From Thermophilibacter mediterraneus (GTDB taxonomy: Bacteria; Actinomycetota; Coriobacteriia; Coriobacteriales; Atopobiaceae), in NCBI RefSeq assembly GCF_900119385.1, contig NZ_FPKO01000008.1, positions 412,382 to 476,381 on the forward strand: a DNA stretch of 64,000 nucleotides, read 5' to 3'. Of the stretch, positions 14,130-22,073 are shown piece by piece; the first letter of the stretch is position 1, and each line of letters begins with the position of its first letter. Made by a program: the position numbers and the translations under genes. The notes below the pieces were generated by a model, which worked only from the letters and a program-made list of their open reading frames with translations, did not search any database and was not told the DNA's origin.

Positions 14130-15254
14130 CTAGCGGCCCACGATGACGAGGTCGTGCGTGGAGCGGGTGAAGGGCTCGTATCCGTCCTCGGTCACCACGC
14201 CGAAATCCTCCAGGCGGATGCCGAACCTGCCCGGGAGGTAGACGCCCGGCTCGATGGTGACCACGGCGCCGGCGGGAACGGGCCTGTCCCAGGAGCGGTT
14301 GAAGTTGGGCCGCTCGTGAATCTCGAGGCCCACGCCGTGACCGAGCCCGTGCCCGAAGTAGTCGCCGTACCCCGCCTCGGTGATGACGTCGACCGCCACC
14401 TGGTGGATGTCGCGCCCGACGACGCCGGCGCGGACGGCGGCGGCGCAGGCCTCGTGCGCGCGGCGGACGACGTCGTAGACCGCGCGCTGCTCGTCGCTCG
14501 GCTCGCCCACGCAGACGGTGCGGGTCATGTCGGAGTGGTAGTCGCGGAAGCCCGCGCCGTAGTCCATGACGATGAGGTCGCCCTCCCCGACCACGTAGGG
14601 GCCGGGCTGGGCGTGGGGGTTCGCACCGTTGGGGCCTGCCGCGACGATGGTGCCGAAGGAGAGCTCGTCGGCGCCGTGGGAGAGCATGTAGTTCTCGAGC
14701 TCGACGCGGATCTCCTGCTCGGTCTGCCCCGCGCGGATGAAGCCGCAGATGTGGTCGAAGGCCGCGTCGGTGACCTCCTGCGCGCGGCGCATGAGCTCGA
14801 TCTCCTCGGCGTCCTTGACGCTGCGCAGGTCGCAGATGTCGCCGTGGAGGCGCGGGGTGAGGCAGGCGATCGACGACGACGCGCACGCCGCGCGGAAGTC
14901 GTCGAAGAAGGCGAGGGTGCAGGTGTCCTCGACGGCGACCACCCGGGCGCGCGCCTCGCGCACGCGCGCGGCGGCCCAGGCGGGGGCGTCCACGGGGTCC
15001 ATGTCGATCCGCCAGGGGCAGTCCTCGCCGAGGCGCTCGCGGAAGGTGTTGTAGTAGCGCGAGTCGGTGTGGAGCCAGAGCCCGTCGGCCGTCACGACGG
15101 CGGTGTGCGCGGTCTCGAAGTCGAAGGTGCGCTCGGAGCCGGTGAACCAGCGCAGGTCGGGGTTGTTGCGCAGGATCACGGCGTCGTAGCCGCGCTCGGA
15201 CATGAGGGCGCGCAGGCGCGCGACGCGCCCGGCGCAGGCCAAGCTGTCTGCCAT
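14130..15254 (-). CDS. pepQ: Xaa-Pro aminopeptidase/dipeptidase (M24B family)
   Basis: Cytosolic metallopeptidase that cleaves peptides next to proline. The N-terminal creatinase-like domain spans about 10-140. The pita-bread catalytic domain has all five metal ligands: D231 (MDYGAG), D242 (HSDMTRT), H306 (GHGLGHGVGL), E335 (IEPGVYLPG) and E349 (RLEDFG). At 374 residues it is the short PepQ/YpdF type. The ATG at 15252-15254 has AAAGGAAC upstream. It follows aroB after 60 bases. Confidence 0.9.
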   Translation of the reverse strand: MADSLACAGRVARLRALMSERGYDAVILRNNPDLRWFTGSERTFDFETAHTAVVTADGLWLHTDSRYYNTFRERLGEDCPWRIDMDPVDAPAWAAARVREARARVVAVEDTCTLAFFDDFRAACASSSIACLTPRLHGDICDLRSVKDAEEIELMRRAQEVTDAAFDHICGFIRAGQTEQEIRVELENYMLSHGADELSFGTIVAAGPNGANPHAQPGPYVVGEGDLIVMDYGAGFRDYHSDMTRTVCVGEPSDEQRAVYDVVRRAHEACAAAVRAGVVGRDIHQVAVDVITEAGYGDYFGHGLGHGVGLEIHERPNFNRSWDRPVPAGAVVTIEPGVYLPGRFGIRLEDFGVVTEDGYEPFTRSTHDLVIVGR

Positions 15255-15314
15255 GGTGGTTCCTTTCTCGAAGGGGTTGGGACGGATGCGCCGGGGCCCG
15301 GCGCGCGGGGCGCG

Positions 15315-16424
15315 TCAGCGCGCGGCGCACCACGCGGCGGCGTGCTCGGCGAGAAGCTCGTCGGAGACGATGCTCAGGCGGACGCGGCCGAGCGCGCGGG
15401 GGGTGGCGACCATGAAGCGGTTGGAGCGGCGGAAGCGCTCCGACCTGATCTGCGCGACGAGCGCGTCGGGGTCGACCCGCGCCTCGACCGTCCCCACGCC
15501 CAGGCGCTCGAGGAGCTCGTCGAGCGTGAACATGTCATCGACGGAGAGCTGCTCGAGCCCCACGGCGAGGCGCGCCGCGAAGCGCATGCCGTCCGCGAGG
15601 AGGGCGGACTCGGGCACGTCCGGGCCCACGAGCGGCCGCAGCGCGCACGCGAGCTCGTGCCCGAACGAGATGGACTGGCGCGTGGACGCGGAGGTCGCGG
15701 AGACGACGCGCCCGCGGCCCTTGATGCTCTCGAGCAGCTCGTCGAGCAGGGCGTCGGGGTCTGCCGCGGCGAGCGCGTCAGCGGCGTCCCACAGGCGGCC
15801 GAACGACTTGTTGGAGTCGCACGTCGCCGTGGCGACCATGAGGGCGAAGGCGTGGAGGAGCTCCTCGTGGGAGGGGTCGCAGTCGAAGAGGCCCGGGTCG
15901 ACCACGCAGAAGCGCGCCGCCCCGTCGTTGGAGACCATGCGCGGGGCGCCCGGCAGGTCGAGCGCCCTCGGGGTCGGACCGCAGAGCAGCGCGGCGGGCG
16001 CGGAGGTCGGCACCTCGAGCAGCGACACCCCTCCGCACCACGTCCCGCACGCGAACGACGCCACCGAGAGGGCCTCGTAGCCGCCCACGGCGACGACGAT
16101 GTCCTCGGCGACGACGCCGGCGTCGGCGAGGAGCTCGTCGAGCGCCTCGACGCGGGGGAGGTCGCAGCCCCCCTCCGGCATCTCGATGCGACGGACCTCG
16201 AAGCCGGAGGAGGAGAGGTCGCGGTGCAGCGCCTCGACGAGCGCCGGATCGACGCCCCCCTCCCCCACGAGCGCCGCGACGTGCGGCTTGCCGATGGCGG
16301 TGCGCAGCTCCTTGGCCGCGCTGCCGCTGATTCCCCAGCCGCCGCGAACGTCCATGGAGACGTTGCGCATGGCGACCCACTGGCGCGCGCGGCGCGGCGC
16401 GGCGGCCCCGGACGCTTCGGTCAT
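15315..16424 (-). CDS. aroB: Degenerate 3-dehydroquinate synthase homologue (AroB-like)
   Basis: Position (overlapping aroK by ATGA), length (369) and overall pattern mark it as the aroB slot, but the catalytic motifs are mostly absent. The NAD-binding GGG-x-x-G-D-L block reads VGGYEALSVASF (113-124). The VGGKTGVN block is replaced by LLCGPTPRALDLP (146-158). The zinc-binding H-G-E-A-V-x-x-G-M reads SALLADGM (273-280). Only FGHE (254-257) recalls the GHTFGH zinc site. Classical DHQ synthase activity (DAHP to dehydroquinate) therefore looks doubtful. It may have another role or be decaying, though the frame is open over its full length. Confidence 0.7.
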   Translation of the reverse strand: MTEASGAAAPRRARQWVAMRNVSMDVRGGWGISGSAAKELRTAIGKPHVAALVGEGGVDPALVEALHRDLSSSGFEVRRIEMPEGGCDLPRVEALDELLADAGVVAEDIVVAVGGYEALSVASFACGTWCGGVSLLEVPTSAPAALLCGPTPRALDLPGAPRMVSNDGAARFCVVDPGLFDCDPSHEELLHAFALMVATATCDSNKSFGRLWDAADALAAADPDALLDELLESIKGRGRVVSATSASTRQSISFGHELACALRPLVGPDVPESALLADGMRFAARLAVGLEQLSVDDMFTLDELLERLGVGTVEARVDPDALVAQIRSERFRRSNRFMVATPRALGRVRLSIVSDELLAEHAAAWCAAR

Positions 16425-16969
16425 AGCAGGCCCCTTTCCCAGAGCAGCTGGCCGGCCTCGTGGGCCACCTGCTCGAACGTCTTGTTCCTGATGTCGATCG
16501 TGAGGTCGGCGACGCCCTCGTAGAGGGGGCGGCGCCGGTGGTACACCCGCGCGGCGTGCTCGGCCGTCCCGAGGTCGGGCCTGCGCTCCGGGCAGCGGAT
16601 CTGGCGGAGCGAGTCCTCGAGGTCCCCGTCGAGGAAGAGCACGGCGCCCATCTCGTGCATGAGCGCGCAGTTCTCCGGTCGCTCGACGATGCCGCCGCCG
16701 CAGCTCACGAGCAGCGACTTGCGCGAGGCGAGGCGCGCGAGCTCGCGGGTCTCCGCGTCGCGGAAGGCGTCCTCCCCGTCCTGGGCGAAGGCCTCCGCCA
16801 CCGTCTTGCCGAGCGCGCGCTCGACGAGGCGGTCGGTGTCGACGTGGGGGCGGTGGAAGAGCGAGCCGAGGTTACGCGCCAGGGTCGACTTCCCGGCCCC
16901 GAGAAAGCCCACGAAGAAGATGTGGTCGCACCCCTCGTGAACGACGTATCCCCCACCCTGCTCCGGCAC
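16421..16969 (-). CDS. aroK: Shikimate kinase
   Basis: Phosphorylates shikimate in the chorismate pathway. About 182 residues with Walker A GFLGAGKST, the shikimate-binding Asp in VDTDRLVE, Arg in DAFRDAE, the CGGGIV loop and the lid/adenine region RRPDL and RRRPLYEGVAD; all key residues are present. The GTG at 16967-16969 is preferred to an upstream in-frame ATG (16996) because AAGGGAGG lies four bases before it. Its last codon overlaps aroB (ATGA). No other shikimate genes are in the window. Confidence 0.9.
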   Translation of the reverse strand: MPEQGGGYVVHEGCDHIFFVGFLGAGKSTLARNLGSLFHRPHVDTDRLVERALGKTVAEAFAQDGEDAFRDAETRELARLASRKSLLVSCGGGIVERPENCALMHEMGAVLFLDGDLEDSLRQIRCPERRPDLGTAEHAARVYHRRRPLYEGVADLTIDIRNKTFEQVAHEAGQLLWERGLL

Positions 16970-17061
16970 AGAACCTCCCTTGCGACGAATCCGCACTCGA
17001 TTCTAGCAGGGGCGGGCGCGGGGCGGGCGGCTCGAGCCGGGCGAGAGGGTCGCGCCCCCGG

Positions 17062-17562
17062 CTACTCCCCCTCGAAGGAGACGCCGCGCAGGGCGAGGCG
17101 CTCGAAGACGCGGAAGACGTGCGTGTACCACAGGTCGGAGCGAGACTGCGGCCGCACGAGCACGGTGCGCACGCCCGCGAGGTTTCCCGCGGCGACGTCG
17201 GTGAAGACCTGGTCGCCGAACATCACGGTCCGATCGGCGGAGGCCCCGGCGCGGCGCATGGCGCGGCGCAGCGCCCACGGGAGCGGCTTCATGGCGTGGT
17301 CCACGAACTCGACGCCGAGCTCGCGCGCGGTGCGGCTCACCTGGGAGGTGTGGAAGTTGTTGGACACCAGGCACGCTGTCATGCCTGCCGCCCGCACGCG
17401 GGCGAGCCACTCCGTGACCTCGGCGGGCGCCTCGCGGGCGTCGCGCGGGACGCAGGTGTTGTCGCGGTCCAGAAGCACCAGCTCGATGCCGGCGTCGACG
17501 AGCTCGTCGACGCTCACGAGCGGCAGCGACGCCACGTAGCGCGTGGCCCTGAAGAGCCCCAT
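17062..17562 (-). CDS. YqeG family HAD IIIA-type phosphatase
   Basis: The 166-residue HAD hydrolase has motif I DRDNT near residue 32 (the YqeG form of DxDxT), motif II CLVSNN, and motif III/IV around MKPLPWALRRAM and FGDQVFTDVAAGN. The family includes mitochondrial phosphatidylglycerophosphate phosphatase relatives, but the bacterial substrate is not firmly known. The ATG at 17560-17562 has GTAGGAGG overlapping the mltG stop, so it is coupled to mltG, and aroK follows. Confidence 0.85.
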   Translation of the reverse strand: MGLFRATRYVASLPLVSVDELVDAGIELVLLDRDNTCVPRDAREAPAEVTEWLARVRAAGMTACLVSNNFHTSQVSRTARELGVEFVDHAMKPLPWALRRAMRRAGASADRTVMFGDQVFTDVAAGNLAGVRTVLVRPQSRSDLWYTHVFRVFERLALRGVSFEGE

Positions 17563-17571
17563 GCCCCCCTC

Positions 17572-18852
17572 CTACGAGTTGGCCGCGATGGCCTGCTGGT
17601 GCTCCTCGTACGTCTTGCTGAACGCGTACTCGGTCTCGCCGGCGTCGTTGGTCCAGAAGAAGAAGTAGAAGTAGCCCTCGCTGATGCCGCTCTGGTCGGG
17701 GGAGCAGACGGCCTGGAGCGACTCGAGGCCGGGGTTGCAGATCGGCGTGGGCGGCAGGCCCTGGTGGGCGTAGGTGCTGTAGGGGTCGGACTCGTCGTGG
17801 ACCTCCTCGGCGGAGGGGTCGTGGCCCACCGAGTAGGCGGTCGTGGCGTCGGACTGGAGGAAGCCGTAGTTGGGCTCCCCGGTGTTGTCGAGGCGGTTGT
17901 AGAACACGGCCGCCACCATCGCGCGGGTGTTGGACGTGGACTCCTTCTCGACGATGGACGCGAGGTTGACCATCTGGGCGACCGAGAGCCCCTCGGACTC
18001 GGCGAAGCTCAGGTCGAGCGTGGAGAGCTCGGTCTGGAACTGCGCGAGCATGGTGCGGATGACCTCGTCGGCGGTGACGCCCTCGGCGTCGAAGCTGTAG
18101 GTCTTCGGGAAGAGGAAGCCCTCGAGCGAGTCGTTGCCGGCACCCTCGAGGAAGGAGAAGTCGGCCACGTAGTTGGAGGCCTTGGCCTGGGCGAGGAACT
18201 CGTCGGCGGGGATGCCGAGCGTCTCCTCGACGGCCTGCGCCACGCTCGCGACGGTGTAGCCCTCGGGGATGGTGAGGGTCGCCTCCGCGTTGGGCCCGCT
18301 CGTGAGCAGGTTGATGATGTTGGCCGTGTCGTCCCCGGTGGTGAACTCGTACGAGCCGCTCTTGATGCTCTGCTCCGCGCTCATGCGCCTGACCTGGGAG
18401 AGAAACTCGCTCTTGTTGGGGATGACGCCGGCGTCGAAGAGCGCGTCGGCGACGGCGGACGCGCCGGAGCCCTCGGGGATGGTGACGGAGACGACGTTGC
18501 CGGCCACGACGTCCTGCGTGTCGCTGGAGCCGCTGCCCGCGAGCGCCGGGACGAGCACGAGCACGATGCCAAGCACCATCGCCACGGCGACGAGGCCCAG
18601 GGCGAAGTAGGGCGCGCGGCTGCGCCTGCGGGCGCTATCGTCGCGCGCGACCGTGTGGCTCCCCGCCCGCCGGGTCGCAGCAGCCGTGCGGCTCGAGACG
18701 CGGCCGGAGGGCATGGCGGCGCGCGGCGCGCGGGCGCCGGCGGCGGGGCGCGGGGCGCGGGGCGCCTCCTGGCTCGGGGCCTCGGGGTGCGAGGCGCCGG
18801 TACCGAAGTGCGATCCGCGGCGCTTGGGGGTCTTGTCGTCGGGGGTGGCCAT
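17572..18852 (-). CDS. mltG: Endolytic murein transglycosylase MltG
   Basis: Cuts nascent peptidoglycan to end glycan chain growth. The 426 residues begin with a long basic, Ala/Pro-rich cytosolic region (1-85) followed by one transmembrane helix, about 88-110 (APYFALGLVAVAMVLG and following). The YceG catalytic domain contains LASIVEKES with the catalytic Glu, and ends with LPPTPICNPGLESLQAV and YFYFFFWTN, both family landmarks. It is bracketed by ruvX and yqeG, a common Gram-positive order. Confidence 0.94.
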   Translation of the reverse strand: MATPDDKTPKRRGSHFGTGASHPEAPSQEAPRAPRPAAGARAPRAAMPSGRVSSRTAAATRRAGSHTVARDDSARRRSRAPYFALGLVAVAMVLGIVLVLVPALAGSGSSDTQDVVAGNVVSVTIPEGSGASAVADALFDAGVIPNKSEFLSQVRRMSAEQSIKSGSYEFTTGDDTANIINLLTSGPNAEATLTIPEGYTVASVAQAVEETLGIPADEFLAQAKASNYVADFSFLEGAGNDSLEGFLFPKTYSFDAEGVTADEVIRTMLAQFQTELSTLDLSFAESEGLSVAQMVNLASIVEKESTSNTRAMVAAVFYNRLDNTGEPNYGFLQSDATTAYSVGHDPSAEEVHDESDPYSTYAHQGLPPTPICNPGLESLQAVCSPDQSGISEGYFYFFFWTNDAGETEYAFSKTYEEHQQAIAANS

Positions 18853-18861
18853 CGTGACCTC

Positions 18862-19275
18862 TCAGCTCTGCCTGGCGTCGAGCCAGGACTGAAGGAACAG
18901 GGAAGCAGCGACCATGTCCACCTTTCCGCGCATGGCGCGCTCGGAGAGGCCCTGCTCTTTCAGGATACGCTTCGCCTCGGCGGACGAGAGCCGCTCGTCG
19001 GCAAACTCCAGCGGAAGTCCGCAGGCACGCGCAATCGAGCGGGCCTGCTCAACGATGCGCTGGGCCTGGGGGCCGGCCTCTCCGGCCATCGTGAGGGGGC
19101 GCCCGCAGAGAAGGACCTCGGGCTCCCAGTCCTCGAGCACCCGGCGAAAGCTCGCCGCGTGCGCGAGGACCTCCGCCGCGGGCAGGACGCACACCGGCGA
19201 GGCGACGCGCGCGCCGGGGTCGCTCACCGCGATCCCGACGCGAACCTCACCGATGTCGAGCGCGAGGACCCGCAT
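18862..19275 (-). CDS. ruvX: RuvX/YqgF family Holliday junction resolvase-like nuclease
   Basis: RNase H-fold protein of 137 residues. RVLALDIGEVRVGIAVSD at the N terminus holds the first catalytic Asp; LLCGRPLTMAGEAGPQA and FADERLSSAEAKRIL hold the other acidic and conserved residues. The family acts in pre-16S rRNA processing and perhaps in Holliday junction cleavage. The ATG at 19273-19275 comes six bases after the alaS stop, and mltG follows nine bases later. The order alaS-ruvX-mltG is conserved in many Firmicutes and actinobacteria. Confidence 0.93.
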   Translation of the reverse strand: MRVLALDIGEVRVGIAVSDPGARVASPVCVLPAAEVLAHAASFRRVLEDWEPEVLLCGRPLTMAGEAGPQAQRIVEQARSIARACGLPLEFADERLSSAEAKRILKEQGLSERAMRGKVDMVAASLFLQSWLDARQS

Positions 19276-19281
19276 GGGCGC

Positions 19282-21942
19282 CTAGATCCCGAGCGCGGCG
19301 CGGGCCGCGTCGAGCGCCGCGTCGATGCCGGAGGGGTCGGAGCCCCCCGCCTGGGCCATGGCGGGCTTGCCGCCGCCGCGCCCGCCCACGAGCGAGGCGA
19401 TCTCCTTGATGATGGAGCCGGCCGAGAAGCCGCTCGCGACGGCGCCGTCCGTGCCGCCGGCGAGCAGGGCAACCTTGCCGTCGGGCGTGGCGGAGGCGAT
19501 CACGCAGGCCACGGGCTCGCCGCCGGCGGCGTCGCGGATGCCGTCCCACGCGGAGCGCATCTCCTTGCCGGAGAGCCCGTCCAGGCGCGCGACGACGACC
19601 TTGTAGCCGTCGAGCTCCACGGCGCCCCTGAACGCGTCGGCGACCTTGCCGGCGCCCGCGCCGGTCGTGGCCGCCTCGAGGGCCTTGCGGGTCTCGCGCA
19701 GCTCGGCCTGGAGCGCGGCCACGCGCTCGGCCACGTCGTCCGGGCGGCACTTGAGCTCGCGAGCGACGCCGTCGAGGGACAGCAGTCTCTCGTCGACGTA
19801 CTCGATGGCGCCCATCGAGGTCACGGCCTCGATGCGGCGCGCGTTGGAGCCGACGGAGCCCTCCGAGACGATCTTGAAGAGGCCGAGGTCGGCGGTGTTG
19901 CGCGCGTGCGTGCCGCCGCAGAGCTCGCGGGAGAAGGGCTCGTCGGACTCGCCGGTGGAGACGACGCGGACGACGTCGCCGTACTTCTCGCCGAAGAGGG
20001 CGACGGCACCGGAGGCCTTGGCCTCCTCCAGGCCCATCACGCGGGTCACGACGGGCTCGGCAGCGAAGATCTCGGCGTTGACCATGCCCTCGATGCGGGC
20101 GAGCTCGTCGGCCGTGACGGCCTCGAAGTGGGTGAAGTCGAAGCGAAGGCGGTCGGGCGCGACGAGCGAGCCGGCCTGGCTCACGTGGTCGCCCAGGACG
20201 CGCTTGAGGGCGGCGTCGAGCAGGTGCGTGGCGGTGTGGTTGCGGCGGATGAGCTCGCGGCGCCCGGCGTCGATCGCGGCGGACACGACGGCGCCCACCT
20301 CGAGCGCACCCTCCTCGACCGTGGCCACGTGCGCGTAGAGCGCGCCCCTGGCCTTGGTGTCCGTCACGCGCAGGCGCGCGCCCTCGTAGGAGATGACGCC
20401 GGTGTCGCCCACCTGGCCGCCCATCTCGGCGTAGAACGGGGTGCGGTCGAGCACGACCTCGACGCGCTGGGGCGCCTCGGCGCGGTCGGTCTCGACGCCG
20501 TCGGAGACGATGGCGAGGACCGTGGCCTCCGCGGCGTCGGCGTCGTAGCCGACGAACTCCGTGGCCGCCAGGCGGTCGGACAGCGCGGTCCAGACGTCGT
20601 TGAAGGTGCCCCAGGCGTCGCGGTTGGCGGAGGCGCGGGCGCGCTCGCGCTGCTCGGTCATGCAGGCGTCGAAGGCCTCCATGTCGACGGACACGCCGCG
20701 CGCCTCGCAGATCTCGCGCGTGAGGTCGATCGGGAAGCCGTAGGTGTCGTGGAGCTTGAAGGCGACCTCGCCGGAGAGGCGCGCACCCTCCCCCAGCGCC
20801 TCGAGCTCGGACGCGAGGCTCTGCTCGCCGGCGTCGAGCGTCGCGCCGAAGCGCTCCTCCTCGGCGGCGACGATGCCGTCGATGAGCGAGCGGCTCTCGC
20901 GGATCGCGGGATAGACGTCGCCCATGAGCTCGCAGATCTTCTCGACGTAGGCGCCGAGGAACGCCCCCTCGATGCCCATGAGGCGCCCGTGGTAGACCGC
21001 GCGGCGCAGCAGGCGGCGCAGGACGTAGCCGCGGCCCTCGTTGGAGGGCAGGATGCCGTCGCCGATCATGAAGGTCACGGCGCGGGCGTGGTCGGCCACG
21101 ATGCGCAGGCTTCGGTCGCGCTGGGCGTCCTCGCCGTAGGTCTTGCCGGAGAGGCGCTCGCCCACCCCGATGAGCCCCTGGAGCAGGTCGCCGTCGTAGT
21201 TGGTGGACTTGTGCTGCATGATGGCCGTGATGCGCTCGAGGCCCATGCCGGTGTCGATGTTGCGGTGCGGCAGCTCCGGCATGGAGCCGTCCTCCTGGCG
21301 GTCGTACTGCGTGAAAACGAGGTTCCAGAACTCGAGGTAGCGGTCGCAGTCATCGCAGCCCGGGCCGCAGTGCTCGCCGCCGCAGCCGAACTCCTCGCCC
21401 TGGTCGAAGTAGATCTCGGAGCACGGGCCACAGGGGCCGGTGGGGCCGGCCGCCCAGAAGTTGTCCTTCTCGCCGAGGCGGGAGATGTGGTCGTAGGGGA
21501 CGCCCTGCTCGTGCCACAGCTCGATGGCCTCGTCGTCGTTCTCGAAGACGGTCATGTAGAGGCGCTCGGGCGGCAGTCCCAGGTGGTCGGGGCTGGTGAT
21601 GAAGTCATAGGCCCACGCGATCGCGTCGGCCTTGGAGTAGCCGCCAAAGGAGAAGTTGCCGAGCATCTCGAAGAAGGAGAGGTGCGTGGCGTCGCCGATG
21701 TTGTCGATGTCGTTGGTGCGCAGGCACTTCTGGCAGGAGCAGGCGCCGACCTCGGGCATGGTCTTCTTGCCCTGGTAGTACTCCTTGAACTGGTTCATGC
21801 CCGCGTTGGTGAGCAGAAGCGACGGGTCGTCGGGGACGAGCGAGGACGAGGGGTACAGCTTGCAGCCCTTGCTCTCGAAGAATCGGAGGAAGTCCTCGCG
21901 GATCTCCGCGGTGGTCATGGTCTTGTAGTCGGCGGTGCTCAT
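19282..21942 (-). CDS. alaS: Alanyl-tRNA synthetase
   Basis: Charges tRNA-Ala. 886 residues: the class II catalytic core (about 1-240, with TNAGMNQFKEYYQG and GNFSFGGYSKADA), the tRNA-binding helical part, the editing domain with zinc-type motif NHTATHLLDAAL and CGGTHARNT, and the C-Ala domain ending in a Gly-rich GGRGGGKPAMAQAGG. The ATG at 21940-21942 with GGGGAGA upstream was chosen over an earlier in-frame ATG at 21975. No T-box leader is visible in the 130 bases upstream. Confidence 0.98.
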   Translation of the reverse strand: MSTADYKTMTTAEIREDFLRFFESKGCKLYPSSSLVPDDPSLLLTNAGMNQFKEYYQGKKTMPEVGACSCQKCLRTNDIDNIGDATHLSFFEMLGNFSFGGYSKADAIAWAYDFITSPDHLGLPPERLYMTVFENDDEAIELWHEQGVPYDHISRLGEKDNFWAAGPTGPCGPCSEIYFDQGEEFGCGGEHCGPGCDDCDRYLEFWNLVFTQYDRQEDGSMPELPHRNIDTGMGLERITAIMQHKSTNYDGDLLQGLIGVGERLSGKTYGEDAQRDRSLRIVADHARAVTFMIGDGILPSNEGRGYVLRRLLRRAVYHGRLMGIEGAFLGAYVEKICELMGDVYPAIRESRSLIDGIVAAEEERFGATLDAGEQSLASELEALGEGARLSGEVAFKLHDTYGFPIDLTREICEARGVSVDMEAFDACMTEQRERARASANRDAWGTFNDVWTALSDRLAATEFVGYDADAAEATVLAIVSDGVETDRAEAPQRVEVVLDRTPFYAEMGGQVGDTGVISYEGARLRVTDTKARGALYAHVATVEEGALEVGAVVSAAIDAGRRELIRRNHTATHLLDAALKRVLGDHVSQAGSLVAPDRLRFDFTHFEAVTADELARIEGMVNAEIFAAEPVVTRVMGLEEAKASGAVALFGEKYGDVVRVVSTGESDEPFSRELCGGTHARNTADLGLFKIVSEGSVGSNARRIEAVTSMGAIEYVDERLLSLDGVARELKCRPDDVAERVAALQAELRETRKALEAATTGAGAGKVADAFRGAVELDGYKVVVARLDGLSGKEMRSAWDGIRDAAGGEPVACVIASATPDGKVALLAGGTDGAVASGFSAGSIIKEIASLVGGRGGGKPAMAQAGGSDPSGIDAALDAARAALGI

Positions 21943-22073
21943 GTGTCTCCCCTGCGGTCGGGATCTTGTGCGCATACAAATCTGGAATTATAGCGCGTGC
22001 AGGGGTGCTGCGGGGCGCGACGCGAGGTCGGAGTCTCGACGCGAGGGGCGGGCGCCCAAGAGAGTGGTGCGCG

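Follow-up and report, generated by a model that had tools for sequence, protein, structure and literature searches.

A probable pseudoenzyme of the dehydroquinate synthase family beside a second shikimate kinase in Thermophilibacter mediterraneus and related Coriobacteriia

The aroB2 gene of Thermophilibacter mediterraneus (15315..16424, minus strand, in the 64,000-nucleotide stretch analysed here, hereafter the window) encodes a 369-residue protein that is, judging from its sequence, very probably a pseudoenzyme of the dehydroquinate synthase (DHQS) family: its catalytic residues have been lost, while relatives encoded at the same locus keep them. A first-pass annotation of the window had reported a gene in the aroB position without DHQS motifs, and alignment confirmed that the losses of the NAD loop, the VGGKTGVN loop and the HGEAV block are all real. 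We infer that AroB2 makes no 3-dehydroquinate, as we infer the order of events set out below, and genes of this type should not be counted as 3-dehydroquinate synthases in metabolic models.

To our knowledge, and this is an impression, pseudoenzymes of central metabolism have usually been noticed one by one. AroB2 is a whole conserved protein family, carried by almost all the genomes examined from two bacterial families in which gut members are numerous (Olsenella/Thermophilibacter and Collinsella relatives), and no description of it was found among the open-access PMC papers listed in our searches. Because its place of origin is clear, canonical relatives occupy the same locus and a redundant catalytic copy exists, the putative conversion of enzyme to non-enzyme is both traceable and testable.

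Fold and active-site residues of AroB2

Homology of AroB2 to DHQS is real but weak. The protein matched the aroB model TIGR01357 at E 5e-13 and 48.9 bits, without reaching the curated cut-off of 305; the Pfam DHQS domains scored 20.8 and 21.4 against cut-offs of 24.2 and 27.6; and M. tuberculosis (Mtb) DHQS (3qbd) was matched at E 5e-14. An AF2 model based on an alignment of 58 sequences (pLDDT 95.4, pTM 0.93) predicted a full-length DHQS fold, with Z 38.4 over 350 residues to 5eks_A at an rmsd of 3.0 (Foldseek, VIA-align). The fold covers residues 11-369 and no added domain was seen; after DHQS, the structural matches were other sugar phosphate cyclases and polyol dehydrogenases. AroB2 resembles AroB (TIGR01357 / PF01761+PF24621; 3QBE, 5EKS, 6LLA) in its full-length homology, its two-domain fold (Z up to 38) and its genomic position, which is that of aroB in other Coriobacteriia, beside aroK. 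It differs in its low score against the family model and in that the AroB2 family is without the metal ligands, the NAD loop and 10 of the 11 pocket residues. The sugar phosphate cyclases 2-deoxy-scyllo-inosose synthase (2GRU), valiolone synthase (4P53) and DDGS (5TPR) also have their fold in common with AroB2 (Z 32-35), but NAD+ and Zn2+ or Co2+ are named as bound in their PDB titles, and AroB2 retains neither site.

Conservation was assessed in 76 AroB2 sequences, a set from which 13 named loci (duplicates, the rearranged L139 and the divergent L180), incomplete frames, L036 and L069 were excluded. In A. nidulans numbering, D116, D143 and K149 of the L052 protein were taken to be D119, D146 and K152, and the residues of GGGxxGD and GExxK were assumed to have a role with NAD. 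The GGGxxGD loop of DHQS is replaced in the window by GGYEALS (residues 114-120; 16065..16085, minus strand), the typical family form being G-(G/D)-x-x-x-L-S; the first Gly is kept in 76/76 sequences and the second in 48/76, the third Gly and the Gly before Asp in none, and the Asp in 1/76. The Glu of GExxK persists in 16/76 and the Lys in none. LCGPTPR (residues 147-153; 15966..15986, minus strand) stands in place of D(146)SSVGGK(152), SVGGKT having become GPTPR, and HG(E)AV has become PESAL. Residues 249-260 (15645..15680, minus strand) begin with the retained pocket arginine of DHQS, R249, followed by QSISFGHELAC for xxLNxGHTxxH, and E272 (15609..15611, minus strand) occupies the position of the third metal ligand, a His in DHQS and the most variable of 15 former catalytic columns examined. 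The three metal ligands (E, H, H) are thus L195, H256 and E272 in the window, where one of the three is kept, and across the family they are retained in 2, 1 and 0 of 76 sequences; the window protein is the only one of the 76 with His256.

Residue lists for Mtb and S. aureus DHQS were taken from the available part of PMC6262012, and motif and spacing served to place them on the alignments. The window protein keeps two of the 11 pocket residues given there for Mtb (R249 and H256) and the family only the Arg (74/76), each of the other ten being found in 0-7 of the 76 sequences. According to the same partial source, Ala substitution of Lys144, Asn154, Asn246, His249 or Lys323 in Mtb DHQS removes most activity (PMC6262012).

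Some former active-site positions have become fixed in a new state, namely Ser120 (72/76), Arg237 for Lys (70/76) and Arg153 for Lys (46/76). Whether the changed motifs are themselves conserved in relatives, a check suggested at first pass, was therefore answered positively at several positions but negatively at the metal site, where the three columns drift (variability ranks 0.62, 0.89 and 0.99 within the family). The 15 former catalytic columns taken as a set showed no excess conservation over random columns (P 0.77), so that any argument from the pocket stands on a few columns. More broadly, 16 columns were at least 85% conserved in AroB2 with a commonest residue unlike that of the AroB proteins encoded at the same locus in other families (locus AroB), and these are used below as the AroB2 signature.

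Ancestry at an old aro locus

On the minus strand of the window, aroB2 is followed downstream by pepP (Xaa-Pro peptidase, M24; 14130..15254) and preceded by aroK2 (16421..16996), a yqeG-like HAD gene (17062..17562), mltG (17572..18852), ruvX (18862..19275) and alaS (19282..21975), the last four being what we take these conserved upstream neighbours to be. Loci were scanned in one set of 125, 101 of them with AroB2, and in another of 104 AroB2 loci, some genomes being repeated in both since the genome and named-contig sets overlap. AroB2 loci follow the order alaS-ruvX-mltG-yqeG-aroK-aroB-pepP, with pepP no more than 600 nt away in 100/104 (some genomes counted twice). Eggerthellaceae and other Coriobacteriia have a locus of the order alaS-ruvX-mltG-yqeG-aroE-aroK-aroB-aroQ-pepP with a canonical aroB. 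Among the canonical-type loci, some of which end at contig edges, aroE and aroQ were each found in 16/24; neither was found in any of the 101 AroB2 loci (some genomes counted twice). The aroC gene lies within the old locus in G037, G047 and G053, and within the second cluster, described next, in G000.

A search of the same genome for another aroB and for pathway genes, as suggested at first pass, recovered a canonical aroB1 (PF01761, E 5e-43) in a second cluster at about 7.5-17.3 kb of contig C6. This cluster also includes DAHP synthase, aroA, aroC, a joined aroE-aroK1 frame, a class II dehydroquinase (aroQ), and tyrA- and pheA-like genes, with aroE, tyrA and pheA named by resemblance only. 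The genome thus has two shikimate kinase matches and one canonical DHQS; with aroB1 and the remaining pathway at another locus, AroB2 need not serve as the DHQS of the genome, and the possibility that it is the only aroB was ruled out. Two frames of the second cluster are of separate interest. In one (L035:8683-10479, minus strand) aroE and aroK1 are continuous, possibly a bifunctional shikimate dehydrogenase/kinase, the aroK2 of the window being separate. In the other (L035:7525-8625, minus strand, on C6) a PTS EIIB domain precedes the class II dehydroquinase (PF00367, E 2e-10; PF01220, E 4e-55), joining a sugar-transport phosphorylation domain to an enzyme of the shikimate pathway.

AroB2 aligned along its full length with the locus AroB of other families at an hhalign probability of 100 over 359 columns, with 25% identity. 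An arginine, Arg281, was found in 76/76 AroB2 and 41/41 locus AroB proteins but in 0/20 AroB1, and AroB1 and AroB2 of this genome are 22% identical. In a careful tree of 45 rows, taken from the 69 of a quick tree with the long branches L069 and L180 left out, 18 AroB2 sequences formed one group (100/100) and 9 AroB1 another (100/99); the tree is unrooted and has a long AroB2 branch. In the quick tree L069 and L180 joined the AroB2 group, and its 25 other rows formed one group with a support of only 78. The tree and Arg281 rule out AroB2 as a recent copy of aroB1. As judged from synteny and the shared residue, AroB2 is the aroB of the ancestral locus and orthologous to the canonical aroB there.

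A second case was encountered in G040, of family f5. Its locus AroB (L056:5956-7059, plus strand) keeps the GGG and GGK loops, whereas the Glu ligand, the first of the two His ligands and the pocket Arg and Asn are gone; an aroB1-type copy and aroC are carried elsewhere in the genome. The protein falls inside the canonical locus AroBs, and its grouping with AroB2, a group chosen after the quick tree, was rejected (AU p 0.0077). It has the appearance of the same conversion, begun independently and less far advanced.

Retention of aroB2 and its overlap with aroK2

The frame of aroB2 runs from ATG to TGA on the minus strand; the plus-strand frame over 15315-16424 is open but unrelated to it. With 74.8% GC and a GC3 of 96.8%, the gene leaves its antisense frame likewise open over all 370 codons, and a 789-codon antisense open frame spans aroB2 and pepP (window 14154-16523, plus strand), most likely as a by-product of high GC3. 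Such a long antisense frame warns against arguing from open frames here. The intact frame had been read at first as a hint of retained function; since a gene this rich in GC leaves its antisense frame open too, the frame is weak proof of retention, and it was dN/dS and conservation that bore the conclusion out.

Under a codon model, omega was 0.156 for aroB2 compared with 0.073 for aroK2, 0.093 for pepP and 0.123 for yqeG (16 of 31 genus loci, 15 for yqeG; fast tree search), and fixing omega at 1 for aroB2 was 694 lnL units worse. For aroB2 of genus g30, omega was about 0.12 (0.125) and a value of 1 was rejected by 285 lnL units. Nei-Gojobori dN/dS for the 14 lowest-dS pairs of 465 was 0.08-0.67. 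By these measures aroB2 is retained under purifying selection; the ratio is far from the value near 1 that had been named as a sign of relaxed selection, and the omega of 0.156 together with the rejection of omega = 1 rules out a pseudogene.

AroB2 was detected in 139/140 genomes of its own family, counting the divergent G084 copy and fragmentary copies, and in 59/59 sampled genomes of the Collinsella family (codes f1 and f10, assigned to the Atopobiaceae and the Collinsella family via contigs common to named records). All 140 genomes matched the AroB2 search, the sole match of G098 being aroB1. For seven of the 59 Collinsella-family matches the alignment was reported to contain 1-3 stops, yet the same matches were listed with open frames of 375-724 aa, and our guess is that these stops reflect an N-terminal overhang of the query. 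The nearest named relatives of the window protein were those of Olsenella sp. SW781 and Thermophilibacter provencensis (66% identity). G098 (98% complete) was the only genome of the 140 without an aroB2- or aroK2-type match and is a candidate for a natural double loss of the two genes; its genus-mate G099 has both. The locus is out of order at L139 (Collinsella vaginalis, NZ_LT838843.1), where fragments of mltG, yqeG and aroB2 recur, reflecting either rearrangement or misassembly.

As first annotated, aroB2 is full length (369 codons) and adjoins an intact aroK. The AroK2 protein matched the SKI family (PF01202) at E 5e-35 and 121.4 bits against a cut-off of 22.1, and the usual shikimate kinase motifs (GAGKST, DTD, FRxxE, CGGG, RRP and RRPLY), whose catalytic roles we presume, were present in an alignment judged by eye. 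The start codon of aroB2 overlaps the aroK2 stop in the sequence ATGA (16421..16424, minus strand), the final aroK2 codon being CTA. This overlap is conserved: among 78 distinct AroB2 loci with aroK2 (duplicates removed), 77 have a candidate start (50 ATG, 25 GTG, 2 TTG) that overlaps the aroK2 stop by 4 nt (NTGA), with the frame open onward. The last aroK2 codon was CTA, TTA or ATA in 50 of 77 distinct aroK2 genes and CTC in none, yet CTC leads the Leu codons in the rest of these genes (790/1617) and CTA and TTA make up 2.5% of the other Leu codons. Because the loci are related, the overlap and last-codon counts are not independent events; even so, judging from codon usage, the wobble base of aroK2 appears to be held for the aroB2 start.

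A proposed role in the aromatic pathway and its alternatives

Without metal and cofactor sites and yet strongly preserved, AroB2 is probably a non-enzymatic helper or sensor. The reading we favour, to which we give an even chance, is that AroB2 regulates or senses the aromatic pathway without catalysis, is co-translated with AroK2 and acts through a putative partner and ligand. AroB2 would descend vertically from the aroB that the lineage carried at its ancestral aro locus. With a second complete aro cluster carrying aroB1 present, the old locus would have ceased to hold aroE, aroC and aroQ, its aroK staying intact and its aroB shedding the metal, NAD and most substrate residues. The stripped aroB would have stayed under purifying selection as a pseudoenzyme, a non-catalytic DHQS-shaped subunit or sensor made in step with AroK2. 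What is left of its substrate pocket, remodelled and rich in arginine (R249 kept, Lys to Arg at 237 and often at 153), may bind an acidic metabolite, and AroB2 so occupied could tune a pathway enzyme. A broader claim, which we advance tentatively and regard as somewhat doubtful, is that in the lineage of the Atopobiaceae and Coriobacteriaceae a complete DHQS, an enzyme of the core pathway, turned in place into a subunit devoted to sensing without catalysis and co-translated with a second shikimate kinase; a similar loss of catalytic residues would have begun independently at this locus in the family of G040. If true, the presence of a redundant aro cluster would time and again leave the old AroB free to take up regulation of aromatic biosynthesis.

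QutA and QutR, the fungal quinate activator and repressor, descend from domains of the AROM enzyme. They are thought, in the available part of PMC12610400, to respond to intermediates of the quinate pathway and may offer a working model for AroB2; they differ in being fungal transcription regulators, and AroB2 has no visible added domain. The inactive DHQase domain of Candida albicans Aro1, as described in the available part of PMC9074039, is likewise a shikimate unit kept after loss of its active site while another enzyme does the step. That case concerns a different enzyme, and a domain of a multifunctional protein; the domain is active in two further Candida species examined in that work. 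AroB2, by comparison, is encoded by a gene of its own that two bacterial families have conserved. A non-catalytic binding role has been reported for a DHQS in M. bovis, which binds streptomycin but keeps its catalytic activity, as far as the accessible part of PMC9063660 goes.

A tie to the aromatic pathway is suggested by genomes that appear to have lost it. The signature was 10-16 of 16 residues in the 76 AroB2 sequences, but only 4/16 in G084 and 3/16 in G042 (both 94% complete), the two most complete AroB2-bearing genomes without aroC (chorismate synthase). In G084 there was also no aroA above the cut-off, no aroB1 and no aroK match, and Pfam matches of the AroB2-like proteins of both genomes were absent or weak. 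This correlation has an n of two, G042 is of another family, and both are long branches in which alignment of the signature columns is less sure. G036 (86% complete) had a signature of 13/16 with aroA, aroB1, aroC and aroK not found, as had G065 without aroC; G065 (57%) and G161 (86%), also without aroC, were too incomplete to count. G064 was dropped as a pathway-less genome, an aroB1 fragment at a contig edge marking its assembly as incomplete, and G048, G056 and G044 had no match to aroC or to AroB2. At L069 of G042, the AroK2 beside the very divergent AroB2 has CGDG for CGGG, and no chorismate synthase was found in that genome.

The proposed role next to shikimate kinase, the other suggestion of the first-pass annotation, held in that an intact kinase adjoins the gene but not as dependence on that kinase alone. 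In 16 genomes searched for aroK, aroK2-type matches were found in G031, G035 and G099, only weaker aroK1-type matches in G067-G072, G063, G098 and G114, and none in G036, G065, G066 and G084. AroB2 is kept without a detected aroK2 in six genomes of g30 (G066-G071), two of g7 (G036, G063), G072 and G114. Its persistence under equally strong selection in g30 means that AroK2 is not the sole partner, and an obligate partnership with AroK2 alone was ruled out.

AroB2 could instead heterodimerise with catalytic AroB1, modulating it allosterically or stabilising it, with the coupling to aroK2 an inherited operon structure only; we consider this unlikely. AroB2 has the fold of a family that normally dimerises (DHQS structures form dimers in the available part of PMC9074039), and aroB1 was found in 17 of 22 chosen AroB2 genomes searched, including all six aroK2-less genomes of g30. 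It was not found in the other five (G036, G065, G084, G153, G161), of which four are 57-91% complete and G084 has a degenerate AroB2. AroB1 is moreover a separate and distant group, and it is the stop of aroK2, not of aroB1, that the aroB2 start has continued to overlap.

Equally doubtful in our estimate is a role outside the aromatic pathway, either new chemistry without Zn and NAD or a binding protein, for example with mltG, yqeG or pepP. It would suit the strong selection in g30 without aroK2, the AroB2 of G036 with no pathway gene detected, and the proximity of pepP, although pepP is not adjacent in L121, L123, L136 and L139, and synteny is uninformative here because the neighbours of AroB2 are ancestral. 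The collapse of the signature in G084 and G042 speaks against it, as does the need for Zn and NAD in every characterised relative known to us.

That AroB2 goes on working as a dehydroquinate synthase, with other groups standing in for its missing ligands, is very improbable: the fold is the same and R249 and, in this species only, His256 remain, but the genome has a canonical aroB1, the metal-ligand columns are more variable than most, and the Mtb substitutions cited above abolish most activity. A slowly decaying, functionless relic kept open only by GC richness is scarcely credible, since the open antisense frame, the faster evolution of aroB2 than of its neighbours and the stops in seven Collinsella-family matches are set against rejection of omega = 1 in two genera, near-universal retention and a start-codon overlap maintained by rare codons.

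In a motif scan of 125 loci, among which some genomes recur, a type IV prepilin peptidase-like gene separated yqeG from aroK2/aroB2 in 13, and six of these 13 have no aroK2. It was placed at L083:4423-4896, where PF01478 was matched, and was also seen in L039, L041, L084, L090, L091, L094, L095, L117, L118, L120, L137 and L180; in the g30 loci examined, such a gene lies upstream of aroB2 instead of aroK2.
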